Shown here: one piece after another, positions 2,753-14,540 of the stretch
Layout of the letters: each line of letters starts with the position of its first letter
Position numbering within the stretch: the first letter of the stretch is position 1
From: Chloroflexota bacterium
GTDB taxonomy: Bacteria > Chloroflexota > UBA4733
Assembly (NCBI GenBank): GCA_025449435.1
Contig: JANWJO010000193.1
Coordinates: forward strand, 1-16,875
Reading direction: 5' to 3'
DNA length: 16,875 bases
Notes under the pieces: model-generated
Told to the model about the DNA's origin: nothing
The model's input: only the letters and a program-made list of their open reading frames with translations
Database searches by the model: none
Program-made: the position numbers and the translations under genes

Positions 2753-3541
2753 TCACGCTCCCACAGCGCCGTAGGCGCGAATGGCCCGCTGCCACACCAA
2801 GCGGAAAGCCAGCAGCGCCACGGCGAGCCAGGCGAGTTCAAGGGCGAAGCCCTGCACGATATCGGCAGGCGCGAGGCGCCCCAACGCCAGCTCGGTGGGA
2901 AAGGCCACCATACAGCGGAAGGGGAGCACCAACGCCACGGCGTACACCGGTGGCGGCAAGATGGCGAGCGGCATCCAGTACCCAGATAGAAACATCAGCA
3001 GCGCGTTGTAGATATCGTTGAACGCACCGATACGTGTGGTCCAGAAGGCGACGCAAGCGAAGGTGTATTCCACGATAAAGCGCATGATGGCGGCCAGAAG
3101 CACGGCTGGCAGCGCGAGAAGCAAACTGCCAATGTTAGTGTTCCACACCGGCTGGAACGCGAGGTCGAGCACGACGAAGGTGGGGATCACCGTTGCCAGC
3201 GTCACGACCTTGTAGCCAATGTTATCGGCGACAGAGGCGTGGATCGGCAGCAGCGGTTTGAGCAGTTGCGGCGACAGCGTGCCGTTGCGGATCTGAAATT
3301 CAAAGTCGAAGTAGACCCAGGTGAACGTCACGTGCTCGACGACCATGGCAACAAGAAAGTAGGCGGCGAAATCGCCGCTGGTGTAGCCGTGTACGGTATT
3401 GGCCCCGGCGACGGCCCGCCACACCACAATGGTCATAATGGTGGGGATGAACAGGGTGATCATCCAGATGAGGGCGGCCACGCGATATTGAAACTGCAGC
3501 GCAATGCGCGTGCGCATGTACACAGCGTAGACACCGATCAT
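2753..3541 (-). CDS. ABC-2 type transporter permease (COG4587-like)
   Basis: Second membrane subunit of the exporter, 262 residues, with about six hydrophobic segments, for example ALIWMITLFIPTIMTIVVW near the N-terminus and LAWLAVALLAFRLVW near the C-terminus. The stretch FEFQIRNGTLSPQLLKPLLP (residues 80-99) matches the cytoplasmic loop of the partner permease, where RxGxLxxxLxKP recurs. The ATG at 3541 overlaps the TGA of the ATPase gene as ATGA, which supports translational coupling and fixes the start. The paired permeases probably form a heterodimer on an ATPase dimer. The substrate is unknown. Confidence 0.82.
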   Translation of the reverse strand: MIGVYAVYMRTRIALQFQYRVAALIWMITLFIPTIMTIVVWRAVAGANTVHGYTSGDFAAYFLVAMVVEHVTFTWVYFDFEFQIRNGTLSPQLLKPLLPIHASVADNIGYKVVTLATVIPTFVVLDLAFQPVWNTNIGSLLLALPAVLLAAIMRFIVEYTFACVAFWTTRIGAFNDIYNALLMFLSGYWMPLAILPPPVYAVALVLPFRCMVAFPTELALGRLAPADIVQGFALELAWLAVALLAFRLVWQRAIRAYGAVGA

Positions 3542-4524
3542 AGCGGTGCGCCCTGTTGAAACACCTGATCGATCACATCCTCGATCGGCGGGTCCTCGAT
3601 GGTGAGGTCCACCACCGGCAGCTCGGACAGGATGCGCGCGGTGCGCTGGGCGGCTTCATCTTTGGGGATGCGTAAGCGTATCTTGCCCTCCTCGTCAGGC
3701 AGCAGTTCACCATAGGTTTGCCAGAATGCCGCTGGCCGCGTGTCGTCCTCCAGGTCCAGCCGTACCAGCTTGAACGGCGCGAGCCGATCGGCCAGGCCAC
3801 TGAGCGCGCCATCGTACAGGAGGCGCCCCTGGTGGATGACGATCACCCGCTTGGCCAGCGCGGTGACATCGGCCATGTAGTGGCTTGTGAGCAGTACGGT
3901 AGCGCCGACGCGCTGGTTGTATTCCCGGATGAAGTTGCGGATGCGCCCCTGCGCGGTCACGTCCAGGCCAATAGTGGGCTCATCGAGGAACAGCACCCGT
4001 GGCCGGTGCAACAGTGCGGCAGCAAACTCGCACTTCATGCGCTCGCCCAGTGACAGCTGGCGCACTTGCTTGCCGAGTAGCGCGCTCAAGTCGAGCAACT
4101 CCGTGAGTTCGTCCAGGGTCTGCTGGTAGGTCGCCAGCGGCAGCTTGTAGATGGCGCGGTTGATCAGCAGGCTATCGATGGCTGGCAAGTCCCATAGCAT
4201 CTGCTGGCGCTGCCCCATGACCAACGTCATCTGGCGCAGGTAGTCGTGCGGTCGTTTCCAGGGCGTAAAACCGAGCACAGTAGCGCTGCCCGCATTAGGA
4301 TGCAGCAGCCCGGCCAGCATCTTGAGTGTGGTGGTCTTGCCAGCGCCATTCGGACCCAGAAAGCCCACCATCTCACCGGGCTCGATCCGGAAGCTCACGT
4401 TATCCACCGCACGCACCTCGCGTTGTTTGCGGCGGACCGCCCCGCGCAAGGCAGCGCCCAGGCCACCAGTTCGCTCACCCACTAGGTAGGTTTTGCTGAG
4501 CCCTTGCACTACGATGTCATCCAC
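3538..4524 (-). CDS. ABC-2 type transporter ATP-binding protein (COG4586-like)
   Basis: ATPase subunit, 328 residues, that would power the two permeases encoded directly downstream. All nucleotide-binding motifs are intact: Walker A GPNGAGKTTT (57-66), Q-loop in GQRQQMLWDLP (104-114), signature LSLGE (157-161), Walker B VLFLDEP (177-183) and the H-loop His215 in TSHYM. About 100 residues follow the ATPase core and end in DPPIEDVI, a tail usual in this subfamily. The GTG at 4524 gives MDDIVVQGLSKTY, the expected N-terminus; the Shine-Dalgarno is poor there (a G-run lies too far upstream), so a slightly different start is possible. First gene of the operon, divergent from the RAD52-family gene across 176 nt. 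Confidence 0.87.
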   Translation of the reverse strand: MDDIVVQGLSKTYLVGERTGGLGAALRGAVRRKQREVRAVDNVSFRIEPGEMVGFLGPNGAGKTTTLKMLAGLLHPNAGSATVLGFTPWKRPHDYLRQMTLVMGQRQQMLWDLPAIDSLLINRAIYKLPLATYQQTLDELTELLDLSALLGKQVRQLSLGERMKCEFAAALLHRPRVLFLDEPTIGLDVTAQGRIRNFIREYNQRVGATVLLTSHYMADVTALAKRVIVIHQGRLLYDGALSGLADRLAPFKLVRLDLEDDTRPAAFWQTYGELLPDEEGKIRLRIPKDEAAQRTARILSELPVVDLTIEDPPIEDVIDQVFQQGAPL

Positions 4525-4621
4525 AGAACATGTGTCCCATTCCCCCCACCGCCGAGACTACCACCAGAGGGGTAGCGGCCAAAAGAACCACACAATGCGC
4601 AGCACTGTTGGGCCCAAGGGC

Positions 4622-4651
4622 TTGCCATGCGGGCATAGCGTACCGTATACT
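4622..4651 (+). promoter_or_regulatory. Sigma-70-type promoter of the RAD52-family gene
   Basis: TTGCCA (4622-4627) and TATACT (4646-4651) each match five of six bases of the -35 and -10 consensus, with an 18-nt spacer. Transcription would start near 4658, about 43 nt before the ATG at 4701. The -10 abuts and overlaps the GAAC-N4-GTTC palindrome at 4650-4667, so a repressor bound there would block the promoter. The elements are read from sequence; the start site is inferred. Confidence 0.62.
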
Positions 4652-4674
4652 AGAACATCAGTTCTAGAAGAACT
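4650..4674 (+). promoter_or_regulatory. Probable LexA operator (SOS box), with an overlapping second half-site
   Basis: CTAGAACATCAGTTCTAG (4650-4667) is a perfect inverted repeat with 7-nt arms around a 4-nt spacer. Its core GAAC-N4-GTTC is the well-known Gram-positive LexA box core. A third half-site AGAACT (4669-4674) also pairs with the shared AGTTCT (4660-4665) around a 3-nt spacer. The site overlaps the -10 element and the likely start point of a DNA-repair gene, the normal position for an SOS operator. No lexA gene is in the window, so the binding protein is inferred. Confidence 0.68.
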
Positions 4675-4700
4675 GCGGATCGGCCGGAAAGGAACCAACG

Positions 4701-5333
4701 ATGACATTCTCAGCACAGCAACTGGACAAGCTCGGCGCCCGCATCGATGAGTCGCGCGTGCACACGCGCATGAAGAACCGCATCGAGTTGCGCTATCTGG
4801 AGGGGCACGACGTCATCGAGACGGCCAACGACATCTTCGGCTATCACGCATGGTCGTACAAGGTGACGCGCCTGGAGAACACCGCTGGCGTGTGGATGGC
4901 AACGGTACAACTCACGGTCACCTCGCCGGAAGGCGACCTCACGGTGCGTGAGGATGTGGGCGTCGGCTTGCCGTGGGCGTCGCGCGAGCAGGACGTCCCC
5001 TCGCTGGACAGCCAGGAAATGGCGATCAAAGGTGCGGTTACCGATGCGTTGAAGCGGGCGCTGCGCACGTTTGGTAATGCTTTCGGTAATAGCTTGTACG
5101 ACAAGAGCGAGGCCGTTGCGCCGGCGGTGCGGGATGAGCAGCCTCCCGCGCTAGCGATCGCTGGGAACAGCGAAACGGAGCAGCGATCAGAAGCGAATCG
5201 CTGCCCTTCCTGTGACCAGCCGATGGTGCTGCGCAATGGCACCACGCGCGACGGGCGGCCGTATAGCGCCTGGTTCTGCTCGTCCAAATGCGGCCAGCAG
5301 CCAATCTGGCTGACCAGTCGCAAGGCCAGCTAG
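4701..5333 (+). CDS. RAD52-family DNA annealing protein with C-terminal zinc ribbon
   Basis: Predicted recombination mediator of the Rad52/22 family, which binds single-stranded DNA and anneals complementary strands. The 210-residue protein starts with the family core: RVHTRMKNRIELRYLEGHDV (19-38), then NDIFGYHAWSYKV, and the hallmark VTDALKRALRTFGNAFGNSL (113-132) followed by YDK. After a linker rich in Ala, Glu and Pro comes a zinc ribbon with Cys168, Cys171, Cys193 and Cys197 (CPSC, then CSSKC). The ATG at 4701 has AAGGA 7 nt upstream. The promoter carries a LexA-type box, so DNA damage probably induces it. It ends 5 nt before the convergent LysM gene. No phage genes surround it, although many bacterial relatives are phage-encoded. 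The role of the zinc ribbon is unknown; extra DNA binding is the simplest guess. Confidence 0.85.
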   Translation: MTFSAQQLDKLGARIDESRVHTRMKNRIELRYLEGHDVIETANDIFGYHAWSYKVTRLENTAGVWMATVQLTVTSPEGDLTVREDVGVGLPWASREQDVPSLDSQEMAIKGAVTDALKRALRTFGNAFGNSLYDKSEAVAPAVRDEQPPALAIAGNSETEQRSEANRCPSCDQPMVLRNGTTRDGRPYSAWFCSSKCGQQPIWLTSRKAS

Positions 5334-5338
5334 CGCGC

Positions 5339-5548
5339 CTATTCTTTGCCCGGCAGTAGCAGGTCGGTGCCAACGTTGAGGTAGCCGGGGTCATCTATGC
5401 GCCAGGCATTGGCTTTGTAGATGACCTCCCACTTCCCCTCATCGCCATATTCGCGCAGCGCGATTTTGCGAAGGGTATCGCCGGGCTGCGACTTGATTGT
5501 CTTGCCTTTTGTGGGCGCTTCTTTTTTCTTGCCCAGCCCAAATGGCAT
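5339..5548 (-). CDS. Small LysM-domain protein, 69 residues
   Basis: This is almost nothing but one LysM module. A short basic head (MPFGLGKKKEAPTKGK) is followed by SQPGDTLRKIALREYGDEGK, then WEVIYKANAWRIDDP and NVGTDLLLPGKE. LysM modules bind N-acetylglucosamine-containing glycans such as peptidoglycan. There is no signal peptide or membrane segment, so either it is cytoplasmic with another role or it leaves the cell by an unrecognised route. The ATG at 5548 has AGGAG 6 nt upstream. It converges on the RAD52-family gene with a 5-nt gap and no visible terminator. Similar stand-alone LysM proteins exist in Chloroflexota and Actinobacteria (from memory); their role is not established. Confidence 0.82.
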   Translation of the reverse strand: MPFGLGKKKEAPTKGKTIKSQPGDTLRKIALREYGDEGKWEVIYKANAWRIDDPGYLNVGTDLLLPGKE

Positions 5549-13391: not shown

Positions 13392-14540
13392 TTACGGGCG
13401 CGCTGCGAGCACCTCAGTGCGCACCTGTGCGTAGGCCGCCAGGCCAGGTTGCCATGCAGCGGCGATCGTATCGGCTGACAGGCCAGCATCGATGTCACGG
13501 CGAATCGAGCGGTTGCCCAACAGGCGGTCGGCCGGGACCCCATCACGGATCCAAGTAAGGTCGTGGGGGTACATAGCGCGCAGCGTCGTGAGGATGTGCA
13601 AGCCGGTGCGCACCGGCCGGTAGGTGGTGCGGTCCAGCAGGTGCAATTGCACGCCGTGACACGTCTCGCCCTGCCACTTAGAGAACGACGGCCGGAAAGG
13701 GCAGGCGCGGAAGCGCACGCCGGGCAACTGGAGCCGGTTGAGCTCAGCCGCCAGTGCTCGCGCGTCGATATATGGCGCACCAAATAGCTCGAAGGGACGT
13801 GTGGTGCCGCGCCCTTCCGACACGTTGATGCCCTCGATGGGGCAGGTAGCAGCAAACGCCAGGCACGAGTCCAGTGTGGGCAGGTTGGGCGAGGGGTACA
13901 CCCAGGGTACGCCGGTTTGATCGTAATACCAACCGCGCTGCCAGCCTTGGAGTCCGACCACCGTCAAGTCGCAGCCGATCTGGCCGGCGCGATTGAAGTA
14001 GCGGGCGAGCTCGCCAATGGTCAGGCCGTAGCGGATGGGAATGCCAAAGGCACCGACAAACGACGAGACGTCGGGCTCGACCACGGGACCCTCGATGTCC
14101 AGGCCGCCCAGTGGATTGGGGCGGTCGAGCACGATCATCGGGATATGCGCCGCGGCAGCGGCTTCCATGCAGTGGGCCATAGTGAACAGGTAGGTGTAGA
14201 AGCGCGCACCAGCATCTTGCATGTCGTACACCAGCACGTCGATACCCTGCAGCATCTCCGGTGTAGGCTTTTGGGTAGCGCCGAACAGGCTGTGGATGGG
14301 CAACCCAGTCGCGGCATCGGTGGTGGTATGGACGTGCTCACCCGCCTGCGCGTCACCGTGAATGCCATGCTCCGGACCGAACAGCGTCACGAGCTTGGCG
14401 CCCGTGCGCGGCAGCGCATCGACGATGCTCTCCAGATCGGCGGTGACGCCGTTGGGGTTACTGATGATGCCCACCTTGTGACCGCGCACCAGATCTTGGC
14501 GCTCATCCAGCAAGACAGCAAGTCCGGTGCGCACGCTCAC
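13392..14540 (-). CDS. namZ: NamZ-like exo-beta-N-acetylmuramidase (DUF1343/GH171)
   Basis: Member of the former DUF1343 family, whose Bacillus subtilis member NamZ (YbbC) removes MurNAc from the non-reducing ends of peptidoglycan fragments. The 382-residue protein has the family pattern along its length: VGIISNPNGV (23-32), LFGPEHGIHGDAQAGE (53-68), the LFGATQKPTPEML block, VYDMQDAGARFYTY (104-117) and VLDRPNPLGG (137-146), then the C-terminal EGRGTTRPFE. There is no signal peptide, unlike the exported Bacillus protein, so it probably works inside the cell. The GTG at 14540 overlaps the TGA of the previous gene as GTGA, fixing the start and implying coupling. The neighbouring serine hydrolase and acyltransferase make a muropeptide salvage role plausible. 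Confidence 0.85.
   Translation of the reverse strand: MSVRTGLAVLLDERQDLVRGHKVGIISNPNGVTADLESIVDALPRTGAKLVTLFGPEHGIHGDAQAGEHVHTTTDAATGLPIHSLFGATQKPTPEMLQGIDVLVYDMQDAGARFYTYLFTMAHCMEAAAAAHIPMIVLDRPNPLGGLDIEGPVVEPDVSSFVGAFGIPIRYGLTIGELARYFNRAGQIGCDLTVVGLQGWQRGWYYDQTGVPWVYPSPNLPTLDSCLAFAATCPIEGINVSEGRGTTRPFELFGAPYIDARALAAELNRLQLPGVRFRACPFRPSFSKWQGETCHGVQLHLLDRTTYRPVRTGLHILTTLRAMYPHDLTWIRDGVPADRLLGNRSIRRDIDAGLSADTIAAAWQPGLAAYAQVRTEVLAARP

Follow-up and report, generated by a model that had tools for sequence, protein, structure and literature searches.

A LexA-type box on the promoter of a RAD52-family gene suggests an SOS-linked annealing protein in Chloroflexota

The promoter of a RAD52-family gene in the window studied here (the whole stretch of 16,875 nucleotides analyzed, from a Chloroflexota bacterium) is overlapped by a palindrome that is very probably a LexA operator governing this promoter; LexA binding and damage induction are predicted from sequence comparison. 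An earlier note on this DNA had proposed an SOS-type operator at this place, and the proposal is supported by the presence of the box before lexA in 27 of 27 related genomes, by a score of 22.9 for the site with a lexA-derived matrix and by the recurrence of the box at 15 of 41 RAD52 places within the phylum. The recurrence of the same arrangement before other RAD52-type genes suggests that strand-annealing repair is part of the SOS response in Chloroflexota.

The site upstream of the RAD52 gene

The promoter lies on the plus strand and consists of a -35 hexamer TTGCCA (4622-4627) and, after a spacer of 18 nt, a -10 hexamer TATACT (4646-4651). Both were read directly as the earlier note had placed them, with the box on the -10, and a consensus promoter scan agrees: this is the sole consensus promoter in the region 4500-5420 (10 of 12 matches, against a mean of 0.2 in shuffled sequences). 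The LexA-type (SOS) box CTAGAACATCAGTTCTAG (4650-4667, plus strand), also read directly, has inverted GAAC and GTTC half-sites separated by a 4-nt spacer and overlaps the core promoter, including the last two bases of the -10. With transcription starting where the consensus promoter predicts, the start point would fall within the box along with part of the -10. TATACT ends one base from GAAC, the same geometry found in the lexA promoters of the relatives. The description of the site as a perfect 18-bp palindrome stands for the two 7-bp arms (CTAGAAC and GTTCTAG), which are perfect, but not for the central ATCA, which is non-palindromic; similarly, the distance between box and ATG, previously given as 34 nt, is 33 nt when counted. 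An extra GAAC half-site (4670-4673, plus strand, within GTTCTAGAAGAAC at 4661-4673) is found just 3' of the box. A Shine-Dalgarno-like AAAGGA (4688-4693, plus strand), read directly, precedes by 7 nt the ATG of the RAD52-family gene (4701-5333, plus strand, 210 aa). That the core of the box is the known Gram-positive LexA site is borne out by PMC3323433, which names GAAC-N4-GTTC as the box that LexA recognizes in Gram-positive bacteria.

The core GAAC-N4-GTTC appears once in the 16,875 bases, and its expectation in shuffled sequences (mean of 0.18, with at least one occurrence in 34 of 200 shuffles) makes the core alone unremarkable and a weak proof. We have therefore considered the full site, using a symmetric 18-column matrix trained on one box each from 27 lexA promoters of related genomes. 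The score of the window site (22.9) is above the median of the training boxes (20.9, range 14.7-25.9) and was reached in none of 150 simulated windows, with a maximum of 19.6. The second-best site in the window by the same matrix scores 11.0.

If the site works as proposed, a LexA dimer bound across the -10 and the start point would keep the RAD52 promoter shut in the undamaged cell. Upon DNA damage, RecA-driven self-cleavage of LexA would free the promoter along with those of lexA and the mutagenesis genes, and the RAD52-type annealing protein then made would presumably pair resected single strands.

LexA-type boxes in related genomes

The comparison of lexA and recA promoters was made in relatives, and the class to which the window belongs was assigned from the matches of two of its genes. 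The best matches of its ABC ATPase among 400 Chloroflexota genomes were in G134 (68%), followed by G299 and G257 (67%). A 382-aa protein (13392-14540) was present in 6 of the 36 genomes tried, with top scores in G110 and G214 (G134's class) and then G234 (the class of G257), and was absent from G134, G257 and G299. Ranked from these matches, the class of G134 (29 genomes) appears the likeliest and that of G257 (41 genomes, here the second class) comes next. Among the RAD52 relatives at 60-69% identity, the two that carry an organism name, P0010 and P0013, are both from Chloroflexota bacteria.

LexA matches were found in 27 of the 29 genomes of G134's class, at 36 places in all, of which 31 were examined (the other five are second copies). 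GAACN4GTTC was present within 350 bp upstream in 27 of these 31 places, one in each of the 27 genomes, and the lexA box of G198 has the same 7-bp arms as the window box. In 24 of these 27 boxed lexA promoters GAAC follows the end of a TANNNT hexamer by 0-8 nt, an arrangement seen in none of the 27 at a control position 60 nt further up. Second lexA-like copies lacking a box are seen in G158, G035, G214 and G134 (L261, L262, L263 and L332).

The expectation that the same motif would precede both lexA and recA held for lexA in all 27 genomes but not in its strict form for recA, where GAACN4GTTC was found at none of 25 loci of G134's class (at one locus the upstream sequence was just 11 bp long). 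After the strict pattern failed, the lexA-derived matrix brought to light a variant differing by one base in 21 of 24 testable recA promoters (L264-L288), GAAC-N4-GTGC in 20 cases and GTAC in one, all continuing into CTA. These variant boxes are located 68-151 bp before the RecA match and score 9.7-16.5. Stretches of 300 bp inside recA, used as control, reached at most 10.8, and 20 of the 21 variants are above this value, the one in G214 (9.7) falling within the control range. The 3' half of the variant box may double as part of the -10. The outcome is a defined LexA-type box, together with a recA variant, for one class of the little-studied phylum Chloroflexota.

Other classes carry the box less regularly. 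In the second class the strict box was found within 250 bp upstream in 3 of 30 lexA loci and in all three further copies (L333-L335), 6 of 33 altogether, and in six other Chloroflexota genomes 3 of 7 lexA loci had it within the same distance. Owing to this uneven occurrence the motif should not be transferred blindly to the window. Many lexA promoters of the second class display by eye (L180-L196, L200, L202 and L203) a GTTC-N7-GTYY form, for example TTGACCGTTCGCTTATTGTCCGGTA, which resembles the GTTC-N7-GTTC LexA box known from alphaproteobacteria; a pattern search for this form before 27 recA genes of the second class found none.

Along a different line, we have searched the genomes of G134's class for the longer box TAGAACN4GTTCTA regardless of the genes behind it. 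The pattern occurred 47 times, in 20 of the 29 genomes (its reverse occurred 4 times), and five of the 47 sites are lexA boxes already counted. Out of 68 listed ORFs, 30 were hand-picked by distance and ribosome-binding site and scanned with Pfam, and 17 matched a family while 13 did not. Error-prone polymerases were among the former, which comprised two each of IMS polymerases, DnaE-type polymerases, RecA-fold proteins, RAD52-family proteins (G222 and G198), radical SAM proteins and sigma-region-4 proteins (one of these scoring below the cut-off). The other five were an IrrE-like M78 peptidase, FtsX/MacB, DUF2461, SH3 and phage portal. That RAD52 genes surfaced in a scan blind to gene identity is, we consider, the strongest single support for the proposed operator. 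A 16-base box identical to that of the window, TAGAACATCAGTTCTA, appears in G166 before a DUF2461 gene (L319:787-1485).

The RAD52 protein, its subfamilies and their surroundings

The assignment of the gene after the box to the RAD52 family was confirmed. The 210-aa protein matches PF04098 over residues 7-140 with 88.3 bits (E 6.5e-25, cut-off 20.3) and TIGR00607 with E 6.6e-21, although the 74.5 bits of the latter are well under its curated cut-off of 224.8. With a profile built from 31 relatives, RAD52 chains of yeast and human in the PDB are matched, the former at 3.6e-26 and the latter at 6.7e-24 to 8.8e-24. The RAD52 core spans approximately residues 7-140, with a low-confidence linker at about 129-164 and a C-terminal segment containing four cysteines (C168, C171, C193 and C197). 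A basic LKR..R stretch precedes the FGN motif as in yeast RAD52 (alignment to 8g3g), and K118, R119 and R122 are invariant across the 31 rows of the alignment of relatives. We take this stretch to have a role in ssDNA binding. The monomer model is of moderate quality (pLDDT 76.5, pTM 0.46), and its top Foldseek matches are human RAD52, with a best E of 5.6e-9, yet with a low TM of about 0.3. An annealing activity is predicted for this RAD52-family protein.

Using the window protein as query, matches at 1e-15 were obtained in 4 of the 400 Chloroflexota genomes and in none of the 29 of G134's class, and alignment A1 as query found 2 of the 41 genomes of the second class. The RAD52 matches in the plasmid and phage collections were all weak (1 and 11 records, respectively), and none covered 80% of the query. 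Single Chloroflexi MAGs can carry several RAD52-family genes on separate contigs, as seen with 4-5 genes in MPNM01 (L027, L031, L041, L048 and L052) and in VXOI01 (L028, L051, L056 and L065).

A search with PF04098 over the 400 genomes retrieved 41 places in 29 genomes. The strict box was found within 400 bp upstream of the match in 15 of them, where 0.18 were expected (one place had 283 bp only), and in none of the 41 within 400 bp downstream, as far as the sequence ran; the remaining 26 places lacked it upstream over the same distance. As in the lexA promoters, the box mostly follows the end of a TANNNT hexamer by 0-8 nt: this holds for 14 of the 15 boxed RAD52 promoters, and for none of the 15 at the control position 60 nt further up. 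In G134's class, RAD52 genes are present in 13 of the 29 genomes. All ten genes of a divergent, low-scoring clade are preceded by the box, and all four higher-scoring genes (in G087, G062 and two in G095) are without a strict one. Boxed RAD52 genes outside this class were found in G098, G106, G387, G257 (C13) and G299. The boxed proteins of G198 and G222 are 65% identical, and that of G198 is 29% identical to the window protein over 116 residues.

In order to place these genes we have used a tree of 106 proteins, made with a quick method that gives SH-aLRT support only and contains several long branches (rows shorter than 90 aa, L362 among them, were dropped). The window RAD52 shares a clade with P0002 and others as well as with L081 and L082, both from viral contigs, and stands apart from the boxed clades. 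For the 80 rows with known upstream DNA, four changes of the box label are required on this tree, in which the clades of G198 and of the window are more secure than the grouping of G387, G098, G106 and G257 (C13). The strict GAACN4GTTC was absent from all 148 loci of our first RAD52 sets (80 from genomes and 68 viral, from 400 bp upstream to 60 bp inside the match, as far as the sequence ran), and those of their members that entered the tree fall outside the boxed clades. The window RAD52 belongs to a phage-associated subfamily distinct from the boxed clades, so that at least two subfamilies of RAD52 have LexA-type boxes in front of them.

L081 and L082 are the nearest RAD52 copies with upstream DNA, 62% and 57% identical to the window protein over residues 1-209, and neither is preceded by a box. 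The search for a box before related genes succeeded in one clade (10 of 10) and in part of the phylum (15 of 41), but not at these two copies. Their neighbors are mobile-element genes, an SSB and an anti-restriction protein in one case and a methyltransferase and an HNH nuclease in the other. In contrast, the window copy is boxed and stands alone, its neighbors being an ABC transporter gene (3538-4524, minus strand), a small LysM ORF (5339-5548) and an MFS transporter gene. The ABC transporter gene is divergent from RAD52 and has the intergenic region in common with it, and the LysM ORF, identified by a LysM domain match, is convergent. When three ORFs of the window were scanned against phage families, RAD52 matched recombinase and annealing-protein families, the LysM ORF matched endolysin and baseplate families through its LysM domain, and the third matched none; these matches leave room for a small phage remnant, which may be present at the locus. 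Judged by its sequence relatives, the window RAD52 looks like a phage-type gene standing alone in a chromosome-like neighborhood under a LexA-type box. A LysM-like stretch (L347:1260-1403) is also found near a short RAD52 frame of G062, arranged differently from the window.

These phage affinities bear on the identity of the regulator. The palindrome could bind a different dimeric repressor unrelated to SOS, for example a mobile-element regulator that arrived with the phage-type RAD52, and the viral-contig copies in its clade, the neighbors of these copies and the phage-family matches of the adjoining LysM ORF point in that direction. We regard this as improbable, given that the phage-linked copies themselves (L081 and L082) have no such palindrome upstream and that the window site fits the lexA-derived matrix above the median lexA box. 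Still less probable is a box that serves the divergent ABC transporter gene instead of, or together with, RAD52: both genes do share the intergenic region, but about 125 nt separate the transporter start from the box, which sits on the -10 of a plus-strand promoter, and the consensus scan found no minus-strand promoter in 4500-5420. A chance palindrome located at a promoter, for which only the expectation of 0.18 cores per window speaks, is hardly credible and was rejected in view of the full-site score (0 of 150 simulated windows), the placement of the box over the -10 of a gene for DNA repair and the recurrence of this arrangement at 15 further RAD52 places.

With LexA as the preferred regulator, we lean towards the broader view that several lineages of Chloroflexota have RAD52 single-strand annealing as a standing SOS arm and acquired it on more than one occasion. 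At least two subfamilies would have come under LexA boxes, including a phage-associated one that the host apparently captured. As the box recurs before different RAD52 subfamilies, the hypothesis can be tested in any cultured member of Chloroflexota that has a boxed copy.

Relation to known SOS and damage regulons

The usual SOS genes include lexA, the Y-family and DnaE-type polymerases and recA, and the classical response is built on RecA. If the operator is real, a damage-induced, RecA-independent route of strand pairing could exist in Chloroflexota, as in eukaryotes. The core is the same as in the Gram-positive LexA regulon (PMC3323433). In the relatives the box precedes lexA and both kinds of polymerases, with a variant at recA; the RAD52-family annealing gene is the addition here. 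No report of a LexA-controlled RAD52 gene was found in the literature searched, and the main text of a paper on Rad52 groups (PMC11783212) contains neither "SOS" nor "Chlorofle". RegPrecise, according to part of PMC3840689, includes a Chloroflexi collection, in which a database prediction of this kind may already exist.

A close parallel is DdrA of Deinococcus, a RAD52-family protein behind an RDRM motif, for which PMC1978522 proposes regulation by DdrO and states that LexA is no candidate. Both cases involve a bacterial RAD52-family protein with a DNA-damage operator near the start of its gene, but the operator is RDRM/DdrO in Deinococcus and a LexA-type box in the window, whose palindrome of GAAC-N4-GTTC form is unlike the RDRM sequences given in that paper. 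The window gene would then be a LexA counterpart of DdrA under DdrO. The IrrE-like M78 peptidase gene found behind a LexA-type box belongs to G087 (L312:1555-2064), and its position there hints that LexA may be connected with control of the DdrO/IrrE kind.
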